64,000 nucleotides of DNA from Rhabdothermincola salaria. GTDB taxonomy: Bacteria > Actinomycetota > Acidimicrobiia > Acidimicrobiales > Acidimicrobilacustridaceae. Location of the stretch: assembly GCF_021246445.1 (NCBI RefSeq), contig NZ_JAJQXW010000003.1, positions 248,001 to 312,000 on the forward strand. Reading direction: 5' to 3'. The translations under genes and the position numbers were made by a program. The notes below the pieces were generated by a model. That model was not told the origin of the DNA. It searched no databases and saw nothing but the letters and a program-made list of their open reading frames with translations. Shown in pieces: positions 24,885 through 31,849 of the stretch (its first letter is position 1; the number at the start of each line of letters is the position of its first letter).

Positions 24885-25523
24885 GTGCCACGCGGGGCAG
24901 GCGCGCCGGACTCCGCCCGCCAGGCGGGTCGTGAGGCGCTGTTCGGCGCCTTCGCCGAGCTCCTCTACGAGCAGGGCTACGACGCCATCAGCCTCGCCGA
25001 CGTGGCGGCCCGGGCCGGGGTGTCGCGGACATCGGTCTACAACTACTTCTCGGACAAGGACGCCTTGGTGGTGGCCTATGCCGACCACGAGTCGACCGCC
25101 TACGCGGGGGCCCTGCGAGCCGAGCTCGAAGAGATCGACAACCCCGTCGACCGGCTGCGCGCGCTCATCGCGTCGCAACTGCGCTACTTCGCCAGCCACC
25201 ACCTCCCGCCGGGCCGTGACCTGCGCGTGGCCATCTCTCCGGCGGCCTACCAGCGGGTCGCGCAGCACGCGGTCGTGCTCGAGGGCATCCTGCGCCAGGT
25301 CCTGCGCGAGGCCGTCGCCGAGGGGTACCTGCCCGACGACGACGTCGAGGGCGCCATGCCGCTGGTGACCGCGTGCATCGACCGCGGCGCAGCCGAGGAC
25401 CGTGACCCCGATGCCCTCACCGAGAGCATCGAGGTCACGACCACGTTCGTACTGCGGGCCCTGGGGGTCCGGCTGGGCCCTAGCGGTCGTCCCCGCCGGG
25501 TCGCACCTCGGCCCGGCGCCTGA
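24885..25523 (+). CDS. TetR/AcrR family transcriptional regulator
   Basis: 212 aa. The N-terminal helix-turn-helix is clear: EQGYDAISLADVAARAGVSR then TSVYNYFSDKDALVVAYADH (about residues 27-66). The remainder is the all-helical ligand domain. GTG start one base after the DUF2470 stop, so both are probably one transcript. Its 3' end overlaps the convergent htaA-like gene by 44 nt. The ligand is unknown; control of the neighbouring haem genes is possible. Confidence 0.88.
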   Translation: MPRGAGAPDSARQAGREALFGAFAELLYEQGYDAISLADVAARAGVSRTSVYNYFSDKDALVVAYADHESTAYAGALRAELEEIDNPVDRLRALIASQLRYFASHHLPPGRDLRVAISPAAYQRVAQHAVVLEGILRQVLREAVAEGYLPDDDVEGAMPLVTACIDRGAAEDRDPDALTESIEVTTTFVLRALGVRLGPSGRPRRVAPRPGA

Positions 25524-27039
25524 TCGCAGCCGTACCGGCCACGCCGGCACCCCCGAGCAGCAGGGCGGCGGCGGTCCACCACAGGGCGGACGAGTCCGAG
25601 CCGGTGTAGGGCAGGGTGCCGGTGGCGACACCGACGGGAGTCGCTCCCCCGCCGACGCCGGTGACCCCGCCGGTGGTGCCATCCGTCGTGGGCCGGCCTT
25701 CGGCGACGTCGGGCACCGAGCTCAGCTCGAGCACGACGGTGAGCGGATCCAGGGCGTCACCGGCGGCGTAGAAGTCCGAGAACGCCGGTACCCCGGCCTC
25801 GGTGAGGCTGGCGGCGATGGCGGGCCAGGTCACGGTGGCGGCCACCCGACCGGGCGTGCCCGCGACGCTGAGGGTGGCCAGCACGACGTCGTCGTGGACC
25901 TCGGCGGCCTGGAGCGAGGTGAACGACGAGGGCACCGTGGCACCGAGCGCGCCGGGGGCCAGCGGGGTGCTCTCGACGTCGGCCACGAGCACACCGGTGA
26001 CACCGTCGACGTCGACCCGGATGTCGGAGAGCTGCAGGTCGAGCTGTCCGCCGTGACCGGTGAAGCGCACGGCTCCGCCGAAGCCGGCGTCGACGCGCTG
26101 GCCGTCGGGGGCGACCTCACCCACGCCCGGCTGGGCCGGGAAGCGGAAGGTGCCGTCGGGGTTGGTGCTGGCGCCGCCGGTCGTCGCGATCGAGCCCTGG
26201 GCGATGCCCCCGGTGACGTAGCTGTGGAACGAGGCCTTGACGCCCCAGTCGAGGTGGCCACCCACGATCTGCAGCGGCCCCGTGGGTGCGGCGGTGGTGG
26301 GAGGCATGGTCGGGGGAGGCGTGGTCGGGGTCGGTGCGACGGTGGTGGACGTGGTCGGCGGGACGGTGGTCGGCGGGACGGTGGTGGACGTGGTCGGCGG
26401 GACGGTGGTCGACGTGGTCGACGTGGTCGGCGGGACGGTGGTCGACGTGGGCGGTGGGACGGTGGTCGACGTGGTCGGCGTCGGCTCCGACGCGAACGAC
26501 ATGGGGACGTACAGCTCCTGGGCGGGGTTGGTCGCGCCGCTGGCCGGGTACGTGTACACGCCGTAGTTGCCGGCCACGGCGTCGGCCATCTCGACCGGGA
26601 GCTGGGCGGTGAACGTGCCGTCGGGAGCCAGCTCCACGTAGCTCCCGGTCGGCGACAGGACCGGTGCCAGCGCGGCCGGGGCGGCCCACCTCTGCGCGAT
26701 CACCTCACGGCTCGACGAGGCGGCCCCTTCCGATGGCCGCCAGTCATCGGCGAACTTGCCGAACGCCACGTACACGCCGGCCGGCTGACCGTTCGCCGGC
26801 GGCCGAGAACCGATGTTGGCCGCCGGGTCGAACCCGGCGCCCGTCACCGTCACCGTCTCCCCGTCACGGTCCAGATCCGTCGTCTTCGACACCGACAGCG
26901 CGGGCTCCCACACCGGCGTGTCGTCGGCGCTCACCGGGCTGGCCACGATCGCCGCGGCGGCGAGCACGACGAACGCCAACAGTGCTCGCCGCGTCGTTCT
27001 GGTGGGGGACCTCCGCTGGGAGGTGTCGTCGGTGTCCAT
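25480..27039 (-). CDS. HtaA-domain haem-binding surface protein with LPXTG sorting signal
   Basis: 519 aa. Order: signal peptide (1-38, ending SPVSA), a neocarzinostatin-like Ig domain (about 45-184, with LSVSKTTDLDRDGETVTVTG), a Thr/Pro-rich linker (185-252), an HtaA haem-binding domain (from about 256, LDWGVKASFHSYVTGGIAQG), then LPYTG at 476-480, a hydrophobic helix and an Arg-rich tail. It is therefore likely attached to peptidoglycan by a sortase not encoded here. HtaA domains take haem from host or environmental proteins in Corynebacterium. The ATG at 27039 has GAGGAG 6 nt upstream; an iron box lies at 27077. Confidence 0.85.
   Translation of the reverse strand: MDTDDTSQRRSPTRTTRRALLAFVVLAAAAIVASPVSADDTPVWEPALSVSKTTDLDRDGETVTVTGAGFDPAANIGSRPPANGQPAGVYVAFGKFADDWRPSEGAASSSREVIAQRWAAPAALAPVLSPTGSYVELAPDGTFTAQLPVEMADAVAGNYGVYTYPASGATNPAQELYVPMSFASEPTPTTSTTVPPPTSTTVPPTTSTTSTTVPPTTSTTVPPTTVPPTTSTTVAPTPTTPPPTMPPTTAAPTGPLQIVGGHLDWGVKASFHSYVTGGIAQGSIATTGGASTNPDGTFRFPAQPGVGEVAPDGQRVDAGFGGAVRFTGHGGQLDLQLSDIRVDVDGVTGVLVADVESTPLAPGALGATVPSSFTSLQAAEVHDDVVLATLSVAGTPGRVAATVTWPAIAASLTEAGVPAFSDFYAAGDALDPLTVVLELSSVPDVAEGRPTTDGTTGGVTGVGGGATPVGVATGTLPYTGSDSSALWWTAAALLLGGAGVAGTAAIRRRAEVRPGGDDR
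26284..26487 (-). repeat. Low-complexity Thr/Pro linker of the HtaA protein
   Basis: Degenerate repeats encoding (T)STTVPPTT units between the two domains of the surface protein. Typical of cell-wall spacer regions. Confidence 0.8.
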
Positions 27040-27076
27040 GTCGCTCCTCGAGGGTCGGACAACCTTCACAAGGTTA

Positions 27077-27095
27077 TTAGGTATGCCTACTACGC
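27077..27095. promoter_or_regulatory. DtxR/IdeR-like iron box upstream of htaA-like gene
   Basis: TTAGGTATGCCTA (27077-27089) contains the inverted core TAGG-N4-CCTA and matches the 19-bp consensus TTAGGTTAGSCTAACCTAA at 11 positions. A -10-like TAACCT (27076-27071, minus strand) is adjacent, so a bound regulator would block the promoter. A separate perfect palindrome, AACCTT-CAC-AAGGTT, lies at 27061-27075. Confidence 0.55.
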
Positions 27096-27164: not shown

Positions 27165-28025
27165 TCAGCGGAGAGCGCGGCGAGGAAGCACGAGCAGAGC
27201 GCCGGTCTCGGGGTGGCGGAGGACCTCGATGTCGTGGTCGTACACCGCCCCCAGGCGCGTGGGCGTGAGCACCTCGGCGGGCGGGCCATCGGCCACCACG
27301 TGTCCACCGGCGACCACCACCACCCGGTCGGCGTGGGCCGCCGCCAGCCCCAGGTCGTGCAACACCACCACCACCCCGTCGCCGGCGTCGGCGCGCTGCC
27401 GTGCCGTCTCCAGCACCAGCTCCTGGTGGTGCAGGTCCAGCGCGGCGGTGGGTTCGTCGAGCAGGACCAACTGGGCCTGCTGGGCCAGCACCCGGGCCAG
27501 GGCCACCCGGGCCCGCTCGCCACCCGAGAGGGTGGGGAAGGTGCGCGCCGCCAGATGGGACGTGTCGGTCGTGGCCAAGGCCGCCCGGACCACGGCGTCG
27601 TCGCGGTCGTCGTCCCCCAGGCCGGCCCACGGGGCCCGACCCATCCGGACCACGTCCACGACCCGGAACGGGAAGGCGACCGCCACCTGCTGGAGCAACA
27701 CCGCCCGACGCCGGGCCAGCTCACCCGGCGGCATCGCCGAGATGGCGCGCCCGTCGAGCTCGACGACCCCACCGACCACGGCCACGTCGCCGGCCAGCGC
27801 CCCGAGGAGCGTGGACTTGCCGGCGCCGTTGGGGCCCACCAGCGCCACCAGCTCTCCGGCCCGGACGTCGAGCGATGCGTCGTGCAGGATCGTGGTGCCC
27901 CCGAGGTCGACGCGCAGGGATCGGGCCACCACCAGGGACCCGCCCCGGCCCACCCGCTCGGGCACCAGGTCCCTGTCTCGGCGACCGCGCCCTCCGCCGG
28001 CCAGCCGGGCCAGGAGGGCCGTCAC
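27165..28025 (-). CDS. hmuV: Haem ABC transporter ATP-binding protein
   Basis: Cytoplasmic ATPase of a haem or siderophore importer, 286 aa. Walker A is GPNGAGKST, the signature motif is LSGGERARVALARVLAQ, Walker B LVLLDEP and the switch His in VVLHDLGLAAAHADRV; the pattern is of the FecE/BtuD/HmuV type. The ATG overlaps the permease stop by 4 nt. The first 33 residues are an Arg-rich extension before the conserved fold. Confidence 0.9.
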   Translation of the reverse strand: MTALLARLAGGGRGRRDRDLVPERVGRGGSLVVARSLRVDLGGTTILHDASLDVRAGELVALVGPNGAGKSTLLGALAGDVAVVGGVVELDGRAISAMPPGELARRRAVLLQQVAVAFPFRVVDVVRMGRAPWAGLGDDDRDDAVVRAALATTDTSHLAARTFPTLSGGERARVALARVLAQQAQLVLLDEPTAALDLHHQELVLETARQRADAGDGVVVVLHDLGLAAAHADRVVVVAGGHVVADGPPAEVLTPTRLGAVYDHDIEVLRHPETGALLVLPRRALR

Positions 28026-29149
28026 GCCCAGCCGCCCTGGCGGGCCCGGGTGCGACGCAGCAGCCAGAAGAAGAAGGGGCTGCCCACCAGCGCGGTCAGC
28101 ACGCCGAGCGGCACCTCAGCCGGGGCGGCCACCGTGCGCGCCGCCAGGTCGGCGCCGACGACGATGACGGCGCCACCCAGGGCCGACGCCACCAGCAACA
28201 ACCGGTGGGAGGGCCCCGCGACCATGCGCACGAGGTGGGGGACGACCAGGCCGACGAAGAGGACGATCCCCGACACCGCCACCGCGGCGGCGGTGAGCAC
28301 GGCCACGATCACCAGCATCTGCACACGGAGGCGTTCGACGTCGACGCCGAGGTGACGGGCCGAGCGCTCTCCCAGAGAGAGCAGGTCGAGCTGGTGGGCC
28401 TTGGTGACGGCCAGCACCACCCCCAACAGCGCCAACGGGGCCACCGCCGCCACCTTGGGCCAGGTGGCCTGGGCCACGCTGCCGAGCTGCCAGAAGGTGA
28501 TGCTGCGCAGCTGGGCGTCGGTGGAGAAGTAGGTGAGCAGCCCCATGACCGCACCGGTGAGCGCGTTCACCGCGATGCCGGTGAGGATCAGGGTGACCAC
28601 CTCGGTGCGCCCGTTGGCCCGAGAGGCCAGGTAGACCACCACGACGGTGAGCAGACCGCCGACGAAGGCGGCCAGGCTGAGGCTCCAGTTCCCCAACACC
28701 GTGAAGCCCACCACGATGGAGGCCACCGCGCCCATGGCCGCTCCGGAGGAGACCCCGACGATGCCGGGCTCGGCGAGGGGGTTGGCGAAGGTGCCCTGCA
28801 TGGCCGCGCCGGCACAGCCCAGGGCGGCGCCCACGAGCACGGCGAGGGCGACACGCGGGAAGCGGACCTCCCAGAGCACCGACTCGGCGACGCCCGTGGG
28901 GGCGGTGCCCACCTGGAGTCCCACGCGGTCGAGCACCGAGGAGAGCACCTCGAGCGGCGACACCGGGAACGACCCGATGGCCGCAGCGGCCACCGACATG
29001 GCGAGGAGAGCCAGCGACAGGAGGCCGAGGAGGACGGGGCCGTGCAGGAGTGGCCGAGTCGCGGCGACGACGTCCTCGAGGTCGTCGCCGTCGGAGCCGC
29101 CCGGCAGCTCGGCGGAGGTCCCGGGCGGCGCCTCGGCCAGGTCGGTCAC
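28022..29149 (-). CDS. hmuU: Haem ABC transporter permease (FecCD family)
   Basis: Integral membrane subunit, 375 aa, with about nine to ten helices. Family signatures include GAALGCAGAAMQGTFANPLAEPGIVGVSSGA and SLGERSARHLGVDVERLR, followed by GLVVPHLVRMVAGPSHR. The start is GTG at 29149 overlapping the hmuT stop (GTGA). About 45 hydrophilic residues precede the first helix. Confidence 0.9.
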   Translation of the reverse strand: MTDLAEAPPGTSAELPGGSDGDDLEDVVAATRPLLHGPVLLGLLSLALLAMSVAAAAIGSFPVSPLEVLSSVLDRVGLQVGTAPTGVAESVLWEVRFPRVALAVLVGAALGCAGAAMQGTFANPLAEPGIVGVSSGAAMGAVASIVVGFTVLGNWSLSLAAFVGGLLTVVVVYLASRANGRTEVVTLILTGIAVNALTGAVMGLLTYFSTDAQLRSITFWQLGSVAQATWPKVAAVAPLALLGVVLAVTKAHQLDLLSLGERSARHLGVDVERLRVQMLVIVAVLTAAAVAVSGIVLFVGLVVPHLVRMVAGPSHRLLLVASALGGAVIVVGADLAARTVAAPAEVPLGVLTALVGSPFFFWLLRRTRARQGGWA

Positions 29150-30144
29150 GATGCCGATCCGTCGGTGTGGATCGCCTCGATGAGCTCGGCGAGGGCGAGC
29201 GGGGTGCGCGAGCCGAAGCTGTAGAGGATGCCGTCCTCGACGGTCACCACCCGCCGGCTCGCGGCGGCGGGTGTCTGGGCGATCCCGGGCATGGCCAGGA
29301 GCTCGTCGATGCCGCCGACCGACTCGAGGCCGCTGCCGGTGAGCAGGATCACGTCCGGCGCGGCCTCGACCATGGCCTCGCTGGTGATCGGGGTGAACGG
29401 TCGGTCGAGGCCGATGGCGCGGCCGGCGTCCTCTCCGCCGGCTGCGGCGATCATCGAATCGGCACCCGACCCCTCTCCGCCGAGCAGGTACACGCCTGCC
29501 TGGCCGCGCAGGTACAAGAAGGCGACCAGGGGCTCGGAGCCTTCCGGGATGGTGTCGCGGGCGTCGGCGATCTCCCGCTCGGTCCGGTCGACGAGGTCTT
29601 CCCCGGCGGCGGGCACGCCCAGCGCCTCGGCGATGGTGCGGATGCGCGGCGTGATGTCGTCGATGCTCATCGGCATCTCGAGCACCACCACTGCGATGCC
29701 GGCGGCGCGGATCTGGTCGAGGGCTTCGGGTGGACCGGTGTCGGTCTGGGCCAGCACCACCGTCGGCTCGAGCGACAGCACCGATTCGGTGCTCACGTCG
29801 TGGGCCCGGGTGACGATCGGGAGGTCCTCCGTGCCGGGGAAGGTGGCCGACACGTCTCGCCCCACGACGCGGTCGCCGAGGCCGAGGGCGAACACGATCT
29901 CGGAGAGGTTGCCCCACAACGGCAGGATGCGAGAGGCGTCGGTGACGGTGACGATGGTGCCATCGGCGGAACGGACCTCGGCGGGAAGGACGGGCGTGGG
30001 CGCGGTGGCGACCGGCGAGAGCTCCACCCCGTCGCCTTCCGGGGTCCCGATCGAGGTGGCCGCACCGCACGCCGAGGCTCCGAGCGTGACCGCGAGGAGC
30101 AGCGCGGCCACGGCGAAGAGGCGACGGCACCGGTGGCGGCGCAT
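29146..30144 (-). CDS. hmuT: Haem ABC transporter substrate-binding lipoprotein
   Basis: 332 aa. The lipoprotein signal ends in a lipobox-like GASAC (Cys about 26). The mature protein has the helical-backbone binding fold of the BtuF/HmuT class: TVTDASRILPLWGNLSEIVFALGLGDRVVGRD, then TRAHDVSTESVLSLEPTVVL. It captures haem outside the membrane and hands it to the permease. The ATG starts one base after the preceding stop. Confidence 0.88.
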   Translation of the reverse strand: MRRHRCRRLFAVAALLLAVTLGASACGAATSIGTPEGDGVELSPVATAPTPVLPAEVRSADGTIVTVTDASRILPLWGNLSEIVFALGLGDRVVGRDVSATFPGTEDLPIVTRAHDVSTESVLSLEPTVVLAQTDTGPPEALDQIRAAGIAVVVLEMPMSIDDITPRIRTIAEALGVPAAGEDLVDRTEREIADARDTIPEGSEPLVAFLYLRGQAGVYLLGGEGSGADSMIAAAGGEDAGRAIGLDRPFTPITSEAMVEAAPDVILLTGSGLESVGGIDELLAMPGIAQTPAAASRRVVTVEDGILYSFGSRTPLALAELIEAIHTDGSAS

Positions 30145-30145
30145 C

Positions 30146-31015
30146 TCAGGACGCCTCTGCCGACGAGTCCCGGCGGCGCAGGACCAACGCGGCGCCGCCC
30201 CCCGCGAGGAGCACCAGGACCACGACGATGCCGACCCACGCACCGGCCCCTGGTCCGCCGCTGCCCTCACCGTCGGCGGAAGCCAGCTCGGCCTCCTCGT
30301 CGAAGCGCTCCTCGACCCCGGTGGTGGTGGTGGTGGCCTCGGTGGTCGTGGTGGTCTCCGGCGGCACCGTGGTGGTCGTCGTCTCGGGGACCGTCTCCGG
30401 CACGGTCTCGGGCGGAACGGCAGCCGGGGGTTCCGTCGCCGGAGGGGCGACCGGGGCGGCGAAGCTCACCGGCACGATGCCGTCCTGGCCGCGGTCGCTG
30501 GCCCGGGTGTGGTCGTTGCGGGTGGAGATGGCGCACTGCACCACCCGGCAGTCGACGTCGGGGTTGAGCATGGCGGACGGGCGCAGCGTGACCGAGAACG
30601 ATCCGCCCGGTCCGTAGGGGACGGTCAGCCCCTGCGCATAGGGCGGCGGGTTCGACGAGATCCAGTGCGAGAGACCGCCGGAGCCCTCCACGGCCACGCC
30701 GCCGCCACACGGCGACGGCGGCGACCCGGGCGGGGGGACGACGCAGAAGGCGACGTAGATCCCCTTGTTCACGTCGAAGCACGAGCCCGTGACGGTGACC
30801 GTCTCGCCGTTCGGGTCGAGGCCCTGGGACTTCGACACCGTCAGCACGGGGCCGCAGCCCTGGGCCGACGCGGGCTCGGCGGAGGGTCCGACGGCGAAGG
30901 CCCCGATCGCCACCAGGACCACGGCGACGCCCAGCAGCCCCCGCCTGGCGAGAGCGGATCGGCGGGCTGCGACGCCTTCGCGTCTCGTGGTCGACTTCTG
31001 CGGTGCGGTGCGCAT
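30146..31015 (-). CDS. Membrane-anchored neocarzinostatin-fold protein of the haem locus
   Basis: 289 aa: signal peptide (to about residue 51, ending PASA), one Ig-like domain (54-175), a Pro/Glu/Thr linker and a C-terminal membrane helix (GAWVGIVVVLVLLAGGGAALVL) with basic tail. The Ig domain reads LTVSKSQGLDPNGETVTVTG and ends VDCRVVQCAISTRNDHT; the Cys pair pattern closely resembles the neocarzinostatin apoprotein family. It shares the N-terminal motif with the HtaA protein but lacks an HtaA domain and LPXTG. It is the first gene of the hmuTUV operon; AGGAGGAGG precedes the ATG. A haem-relay role is inference. Confidence 0.75.
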   Translation of the reverse strand: MRTAPQKSTTRREGVAARRSALARRGLLGVAVVLVAIGAFAVGPSAEPASAQGCGPVLTVSKSQGLDPNGETVTVTGSCFDVNKGIYVAFCVVPPPGSPPSPCGGGVAVEGSGGLSHWISSNPPPYAQGLTVPYGPGGSFSVTLRPSAMLNPDVDCRVVQCAISTRNDHTRASDRGQDGIVPVSFAAPVAPPATEPPAAVPPETVPETVPETTTTTVPPETTTTTEATTTTTGVEERFDEEAELASADGEGSGGPGAGAWVGIVVVLVLLAGGGAALVLRRRDSSAEAS

Positions 31016-31061: not shown

Positions 31062-31080
31062 ATAGGTCTGCCTAACATCC
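31062..31080. promoter_or_regulatory. DtxR/IdeR-like iron box between haem oxygenase and the hmu operon
   Basis: ATAGGTCTGCCTAACATCC matches TTAGGTTAGSCTAACCTAA at 13 of 19 positions with the core TAGG-N4-CCTA. It lies in the divergent region and overlaps a TANNNT (TAACAT, 31073-31078) that could serve haem oxygenase. Confidence 0.6.
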
Positions 31081-31192: not shown

Positions 31193-31849
31193 GTGTCCAC
31201 GACCGAGCAGGATCGAACCGACGGCGCGACGGCAGCGTTCTCCGAGGCGGTGAAGGCCGCTTCCTGGGAGGTCCACGAGCACGCCGAGCACTCCCGGTAC
31301 ATGCAGGACCTCATGGCCGGGCGGCTCGACCGGGCGGCCTACGCCCGGCTCGTCGCCCAGCAGTACTTCGCCTACCGGGACCTGGAGGCGGCCTCGCAGC
31401 GCATGGCCGACGATCCCATCGGGTCCCGCTTCGTCTTCCCGGAGCTGTACCGCCTCCCGGCTCTGCACGCCGACCTCGACGCCCTCTTGGGCCGCGGATG
31501 GCGATCCAGCATCGAGCCCACGCCTGCCACGGCCGCCTACTGCGGCCGCCTCCGCGACGTGGCCGCCACCGACCCCGGCGCCTATGTGGCCCACCACTAC
31601 GTGCGCTACATGGGCGACCTCTCCGGTGGTCAGGTCATCCGGCGGGTCGTCGAGCGCACCTACGACATCGCCGACCACGCCGGCACCAGCTTCTACGTCT
31701 TCGACCGCGTCGACCCCAAGGCGTTCAAGCAGCAGTACCGCCTCCGGCTCGACGCCACGCCCTGGACCGAGCCGGAGAAGGCCCGCATCATCGACGAGGT
31801 GCTGCTCGCCTACCGCCTCAACACCGACGTCCTGGCCGAGCTCGCCTGA
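31193..31849 (+). CDS. hmuO: Biliverdin-producing haem oxygenase
   Basis: Opens haem to biliverdin, CO and Fe2+, releasing iron. 218 aa, the typical bacterial HmuO length. The proximal haem ligand His is in SWEVHEHAEHSRYMQDLMAG and the distal helix holds the signature GDLSGGQVI. GTG start with GAGGAG 6 nt upstream. It is divergent from the haem uptake operon and shares its iron box, so uptake and degradation are probably co-regulated by iron. Confidence 0.93.
   Translation: MSTTEQDRTDGATAAFSEAVKAASWEVHEHAEHSRYMQDLMAGRLDRAAYARLVAQQYFAYRDLEAASQRMADDPIGSRFVFPELYRLPALHADLDALLGRGWRSSIEPTPATAAYCGRLRDVAATDPGAYVAHHYVRYMGDLSGGQVIRRVVERTYDIADHAGTSFYVFDRVDPKAFKQQYRLRLDATPWTEPEKARIIDEVLLAYRLNTDVLAELA

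Follow-up and report, generated by a model that had tools for sequence, protein, structure and literature searches.

A predicted neocarzinostatin-fold surface protein at the head of a haem-uptake operon in Rhabdothermincola salaria

The window, by which we mean the whole stretch of 64,000 nucleotides of Rhabdothermincola salaria analysed here, carries on its reverse strand an open reading frame (30146..31015) for a surface protein of 289 amino acids, hereafter called the NCS protein, with sub-threshold matches to PF00960 and NF040680. It consists of a signal peptide, a single neocarzinostatin-like (NCS-like) domain, a Pro/Thr-rich linker, a C-terminal transmembrane helix and an RRR tail; signal peptide and helix were called by eye, and no LPxTG motif was seen in the protein. 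The gene starts with the ATG at 31015, with AGGAGG 7 nt upstream, and the domain, which is of the Cys-type, occupies 30455..30850 (reverse strand). The sequence-only reading had described an Ig domain ending with VDCRVVQC and GIVPVSFA, and both were located on the same strand: the former, the second Cys pair, at 30533..30556 with the spacing of C88-C93 of neocarzinostatin, and the latter at 30458..30481, where sequence and predicted structure place the last strand of the domain. Its view that the gene heads the hmuTUV operon also held, as the stop codon (30146-30148) is followed after a 1-nt gap by the hmuT ATG (30144), and hmuT/hmuU as well as hmuU/hmuV overlap.

All three parts of a haem importer, a haem-type substrate-binding protein, a permease and an ATPase, were found at the locus, each on the reverse strand. 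HmuT (29146..30144) is the substrate-binding protein of the ABC transporter (PF01497), whose best match among solved proteins is PDB 5gj3 (E 6.4e-56), with C. glutamicum HmuT, 5az3, at E 5e-53; hmuU (28022..29149) encodes a FecCD permease (PF01032, E 1.9e-93), and hmuV (27165..28025) a haem ABC ATPase (NF010068, 309 bits against a cut-off of 261). Downstream of hmuTUV, on the same strand and with its own upstream region, lies the gene of an HtaA-type protein (25480..27069, likely start ATG 27039; PF04213 E 4.2e-45; PDB 6jsa E 6.3e-19), which is the sole PF04213 match in the genome and is built of a Cys-free NCS-like domain (26488..26904, reverse strand), a Pro/Thr linker, one CR (HtaA) domain and an LPYTG-type tail. 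A haem oxygenase gene (31193..31849, forward strand; PF01126 E 3.1e-58) diverges from the operon. On the 289-residue NCS protein itself, neither a CR domain (PF04213) nor a NEAT domain (PF05031) was found up to E 10. In the alignment with 5az3, the window HmuT has kept the His (chain position 118) and the Tyr-x-Arg (217 and 219); a single offset of 23 relates these to the haem ligands reported for C. glutamicum HmuT, His141, Tyr240 and Arg242 (PMC4926363). The CR domain of the HtaA protein aligns SFHSY to SFQNY of 6jsa, keeping the spacing of the Ser-x3-Tyr haem-ligand motif of CR domains, which bind haem by a helix Tyr (PMC12494546). Because HmuT and the CR domain match solved haem proteins with the ligand positions kept, the operon is, as judged from these alignments, a real haem-uptake locus, in agreement with the earlier description of the NCS protein as a probable haem-locus component.

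An iron-box-like palindrome, TAGGTCTGCCTA (31063..31074), is situated 48 nt upstream of the ATG of the NCS gene, and another, TAGGTATGCCTA (27078..27089), upstream of the HtaA gene, both listed without strand. Allowing at most one mismatch, TAGGTNTGCCTA has two sites in the 64 kb against 0.07 expected, just upstream of the NCS and HtaA genes. For 38 of 77 loci of the genome scan described below, the 450 bases upstream of the domain contained iron-box patterns such as TTAGGTTAGCCTCACCTAA, compared with 15 of 2877 background windows; three loci with fewer than 450 bases upstream (L070, L076, L133) are excluded from this count. Motif searches relied on what we take to be the iron-box consensus. 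In its strict 19-bp form and with up to two mismatches, it gave two sites in the genome of R. salaria, none in the window, and one site in the backward control, and since neither window site is found in this way, both are called box-like only. Together, the sites suggest that the NCS gene may be under iron regulation. In S. coelicolor, hmuO-, htaA- and hmuTUV-like genes (SCO2267, SCO2270-2274) have been assigned to siderophore-independent iron acquisition, and their neighbour SCO2269 is described as fitting no known family (PMC12161575).

The resemblance to the apoprotein of neocarzinostatin, proposed from the letters alone, was confirmed by profile and structure comparisons, with a predicted structural match for the domains of both the NCS and the HtaA protein. 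An AlphaFold model of the Cys-type domain, made from an 18-row alignment, reached a pLDDT of 88.9, with only residues 51-57 below 50. Its best Foldseek match was macromomycin (E 5.8e-6), and VIA ranks 1-10 were taken by macromomycin, neocarzinostatin, C-1027 and actinoxanthin (Z 12.8-9.8, 97-103 residues aligned at 2.1-2.5 A), followed by the first non-chromoprotein at Z 6.9; against macromomycin and neocarzinostatin the values were Z 12.8 and rmsd 2.1 with 101-103 aligned residues. For the Cys-free domain of the HtaA protein, modelled from a 14-row alignment (pLDDT 94.6), VIA ranks 1-7 were likewise chromoproteins (neocarzinostatin/macromomycin; Z 10.1-9.4, next 6.8); these are absent from the Foldseek top 50 for this domain, though VIA does rank them. 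The claim that the HtaA protein carries a Cys-free copy is thus correct for the window, with the same predicted fold, but in other members the second Cys pair can be retained in copies of this kind, and 'Cys-free' therefore denotes a sub-type and not a rule.

At the sequence level, PF00960 scored 16.9 bits on the whole protein and 24.0 bits (E 3.9e-5) on the isolated domain, just below the gathering cut-off of 25 bits, and NF040680, 'enediyne antibiotic chromoprotein', reached 31.6 bits against an equivalog cut-off of 86; the domain thus stays below the thresholds of both families. Sub-threshold chromoprotein matches from Pfam and NCBIfam are present on the NCS protein and on the HtaA protein. 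In alignment A4, whose 79 rows are the window and all scan loci but L076 and L093 (78 of the 80), PF00960 matches 68 of the 79 members at E <= 0.01, at best with 8.8e-8, and NF040680 matches 77. A profile-profile comparison with seven PF00960 domains gave a probability of 96.7. Since PF00960 and NF040680 match the window domain and most A4 members, chance is inadequate as an explanation of the chromoprotein similarity. Both Cys pairs of neocarzinostatin are present in the window domain (C36/C48 and C101/C106 in 132-residue numbering, paired by sequence), and in A4 numbering C39, C51 and C104 occur in 79 of 79 rows and C109 in 78. The relatives are remote enough to require a profile, as phmmer with the single NCS protein returned nothing but chance Rubisco matches in the PDB. 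Within the genome of R. salaria, PF00960 found the window protein at E <= 0.01 and nothing at E <= 0.001, a null that says little because the positive control of this search was silent. The plasmid records searched gave no match.

Relatives of the domain were collected in a scan of GTDB genomes seeded with R[NA]DH[TV]R[STA]xDR and G[ALS]SxWISS[ND]P, of which the best 80 of 181 were kept. They come from 18 named genera, including Actinoplanes, Micromonospora, Actinomadura, Nocardiopsis, Thermobifida and Streptomyces, from many uncultured actinobacterial lineages and from one record labelled Chloroflexi; this last, a metagenome-assembled genome (L090), has an NCS domain, haem oxygenase and an hmu locus. 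HmuT or HmuU accompanied 77 of these best 80 relatives and 0 of 19 arbitrary regions, which were hand-picked at round coordinates in eight sampled genomes and were not random. In the control regions, tblastn revealed a weak HmuV-like ATPase in five of 19, and HmuT, HmuU, haem oxygenase and CR in none. The three exceptions among the scan loci (L077, L120, L133) end at contig edges and carry CR or haem oxygenase. The NCS gene lies upstream of hmuT and co-directional with it in 52 of the 80 loci and divergent from it in 25. A search with the whole protein at the level of the order, without motif seeding, matched 16 of 99 genomes including R. salaria itself. The domain itself was matched in seven other genomes, from which eight regions were taken; seven contain HmuT or HmuU, and the eighth, on a second contig of one genome, a CR-NCS fusion. 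In the remaining eight genomes, no match was better than E 2.6e-5, and most lay in linker and tail.

Across the phylum, 17 of 396 sampled genomes matched alignment A1, which was built on 30455-30850. Since no more than ten candidates per genome were scored in the phylum searches with A1 and A4, counts of presence in this sample are lower bounds. Among 16 regions from this sample, HmuT/HmuU were present in seven, and CR and NCS domains shared one ORF in three more; L155, a contig of 4.7 kb, has an HmuV-like ATPase as its sole hmu-type gene. No HmuTUV, haem oxygenase or CR was detected in the other five of the 16 regions (L150, L152, L158, L161, L162), which counts against a haem role. L150 (8626-12103) and L152, both from one genus with large genomes, perhaps Streptomyces, have tandem NCS genes away from hmu, and one of them also shows a long second region and a tail of the sortase type. 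In L162 (G333:C12:5372-6664), from another genome of the order to which R. salaria belongs, four tandem domains in one ORF exceed the PF00960 cut-off, and HmuT, HmuU, haem oxygenase and CR were not found in the 15 kb around this ORF. The sets overlap, since scan loci L067, L080, L099, L107 and L092 are the contigs of L029, L036, L034, L033 and L149, respectively. Fold and linkage taken together, we regard it as close to certain that the protein has the neocarzinostatin fold and is a member of haem-uptake loci.

Y32, W63 and D113-H114 (132-residue numbering) are invariant in the 79 rows of A4. Conservation was also counted over a larger set of 240 hits, of which 226 were used and 216 were unique, with hits of E >1e-4, of 86 residues or fewer, containing X or identical to others excluded. 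The strand Tyr is present in 202 of the 216 unique domains, the strand Trp in 196 and the loop His in 174, the next-richest His column having 27. Conservation inside the seed peptides is partly selection because the scan was seeded with them; in the 140 domains left after removal of the 80 motif-seeded ones, the counts are Y 126, W 120 and H 98. The Asp-His pair aligns to D99-A100 of neocarzinostatin, beside Ser98, which is one position varied in an engineered neocarzinostatin (PMC3754942). The disulfide C37-C47 of neocarzinostatin sits directly under the enediyne ring (PMC2694159), and the equivalent Cys pair is kept in the NCS-like domain. Since the conserved Cys pair and the Asp-His map to the region of the chromophore cleft, this cleft would be the natural candidate for a haem site. 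None of the four Cys is present in the copy that the HtaA protein of the window carries, and the corresponding loop there is without a His, which counts against haem as the ligand.

Fusion of NCS and CR domains within a single ORF recurs: it was found in 19 of the 80 scan loci, seven of the 16 phylum-sample loci and two of the eight order-level loci, in the orders NCS-CR, CR-NCS and CR-NCS-CR and with up to six NCS and two CR domains. Both domains occurred in the same genome ten times against 0.8 expected (395 genomes, R. salaria excluded), and with the stricter A4 profile six times against 0.46, both without correction for shared ancestry. The CR domain is not a constant companion. PF04213 was not found in six of the 16 phylum-sample genomes with NCS other than R. 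salaria, and in three of these (G038, G256, G344) the NCS domain is still within an hmu locus. Of the scan loci, 36 have no CR in the stretch; the genomes of 26 of them were searched, and PF04213 was absent from 21, a count to be read with the reservation that weak CR domains may escape, because PF04213 missed G327, where our own CR profile found an NCS-CR ORF (L160). These 21 genomes comprise 11 metagenome-assembled or uncultured ones and ten cultured isolates, namely seven Actinomadura and one each of Thermomonospora, Motilibacter and Nakamurella. NEAT was not found in the 26 genomes either, in a search without a positive control. In L111, L075, L084 and other loci of the Actinomadura type, the stretch encodes three NCS proteins and lacks CR; the two divergent paralogues there keep the second Cys pair only, and AAHG replaces the R-x-D-H motif.

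Among known proteins, the enediyne chromoproteins neocarzinostatin, macromomycin, C-1027 and actinoxanthin (PF00960) have the fold and both Cys pairs in common with the NCS-like domain; the NCS protein differs in its conserved Tyr, Trp, Asp-His and WISSNPP segments, its membrane anchor and its haem locus. With the CR proteins HtaA, HtaB and ChtA of corynebacteria (PF04213), it shares the type of locus and the surface location, and CR-NCS fusions were found here, but the fold of CR domains is a different one. NEAT (Isd) domains act upstream of the haem importer on the cell surface. The NEAT domains of Bacillota are, like the NCS protein, surface domains ahead of a haem importer (PMC12494546), but the NCS protein has no NEAT match. 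CwpG of Actinoplanes missouriensis is a surface protein with an InterPro neocarzinostatin-like domain and is, unlike the NCS protein, a candidate sortase substrate (PMC13251363). The words 'heme' and 'HtaA' are absent from the CwpG paper, and deletion of cwpG is reported there to leave growth and sporangia unchanged on the media used (PMC13251363), which would count against a haem role if cwpG were the hmu-linked gene.

A further relative is ThiX (PDB 7qhm chain M), which matches A1 with an E-value of 5.1e-13 over profile positions 14-132 of 132 and, like the NCS-like domain, has the Tyr, the Trp, the Asp-His and four Cys, of which the second is shifted by one column. Because it is a sequence relative of the haem-locus domain, the soluble domain of ThiX probably has the neocarzinostatin fold as well. 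To our knowledge, ThiX has no known haem role, which again counts against haem handling. Since the Asp-His/Tyr/Trp/Cys pattern is also in ThiX, and the motif in copies away from hmu (L150), the pattern is not specific to haem loci. ThiX is the lipid-anchored subunit of the bcc-aa3 respiratory supercomplex of C. glutamicum, with its soluble domain unresolved in the structure (PMC8795186).

Our preferred reading, which we hold by a narrow margin over its negation, is that the NCS protein is a surface component of HmuTUV import, anchored in the membrane and controlled by iron, whose NCS domain most likely takes up haem and relays it to HmuT. Computation supplied the fold, the operon, the transporter's haem identity, the iron-box-like sites, the linkage and the CR fusions, and from these we infer how such a relay would work. 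A switch of the iron type would control the anchored surface protein, and its NCS domain would acquire haem that is free or delivered by HtaA-type CR domains lying further out. The haem would sit in the cleft that holds the enediyne in chromoproteins, in contact with the conserved H114 and perhaps with Tyr32 or Trp63, and would be passed on to HmuT, a role that has been suggested for HtaB of corynebacteria (PMC8027190). The NCS protein is probably a haem-capture or haem-relay protein; for direct handling of haem by the domain, where binding is suggested by locus, fusion, iron-box and conservation, we see evenly balanced chances.

The constant pairing with HmuT and the conservation of the loops would suit an interface between proteins no less than a ligand site, and the extra NCS copies, in tandem and fused to CR domains, would also agree with a docking adaptor that, itself making no haem contact, binds HmuT and CR proteins and keeps the relay assembled within the cell wall. 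We consider this unlikely, though the most serious of the alternatives: the kept Cys pair and the His map to the ligand-cleft region of the fold, and the adaptor would have little outer partner in CR-less actinobacteria, because 21 of 26 CR-less NCS-hmu genomes searched have no PF04213 match (weak CR domains may escape). Another ligand met by the haem system, such as a haemoprotein, another tetrapyrrole, a siderophore or a small aromatic, is a rather improbable choice. The fold is versatile for small molecules, with engineered neocarzinostatins binding testosterone hemisuccinate according to PDB titles, and genetics connects thiX with thiamine biosynthesis (PMC8795186), but the locus also encodes haem oxygenase, a CR domain and a haem-type HmuT, all of which speak for haem.

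A generic Ig-like spacer raising other domains off the cell surface would account for the Ig-like fold, the tandem copies in large multidomain proteins and the weak PKD (4/79) and TIG (3/79) matches; in the window, however, the NCS-like domain is the sole domain of its protein, loop residues are more conserved than expected of a spacer, and the locus is specific, all of which disfavours this explanation and makes it very improbable. Least credible of all is a true enediyne chromoprotein, or an antibiotic-sequestering immunity protein, lying beside hmu by accident. Similarity to NF040680 extends over 77 of 79 A4 members, but the 31.6 bits of the window protein stand against the 86-bit equivalog cut-off, and the same hmu linkage recurs in 18 named genera and uncultured lineages, a conserved synteny that disfavours accident. 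Inspection by eye of the ORFs at 22-40 kb of the window, six of which were profiled, revealed no enediyne cluster. A chance neighbourhood was likewise rejected.

Haem uptake in actinobacteria has been described as running via CR-domain proteins (PMC12494546, PMC8027190), and papers on actinobacterial haem clusters describe HtaA-domain proteins (PMC10060970, PMC8027190). In the loci studied here, this importer has a further conserved domain at its side, found across 18 named genera as well as uncultured lineages, and for some of the genomes no CR was detected next to it. No published link between the neocarzinostatin fold and haem was found among the matches listed, and no paper with 'neocarzinostatin' and 'HtaA' together in the literature searched, whose coverage stops short of most subscription journals and bioRxiv preprints. 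Tentatively, and with rather less confidence than in the relay itself, the neocarzinostatin fold may be a third, independent haem-handling surface domain of Gram-positives beside NEAT and CR, forming the entire cell-wall arm in CR-less actinobacteria, with the antitumour chromoproteins as a late offshoot; on this view, ThiX would be a member linked to tetrapyrroles and stationed at the respiratory supercomplex. A carrier-type fold at haem loci makes binding tests with one protein possible and offers a clue to the function of many surface proteins that lack annotation. It also supplies a likely fold for the ThiX domain and raises a question on the origin of the enediyne carrier proteins.

Some hmu loci show marked expansion of the domain. 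One ORF of L156 (7663-11862) combines six NCS with two CR domains inside the hmu locus, and in L035 (7374-13631) seven tandem NCS domains are spread over three ORFs, also inside the hmu locus. In L036 (6468-8720), the protein at the HtaA position has a Cys-free and a Cys-type NCS domain, an LPVTG signal and no CR domain.
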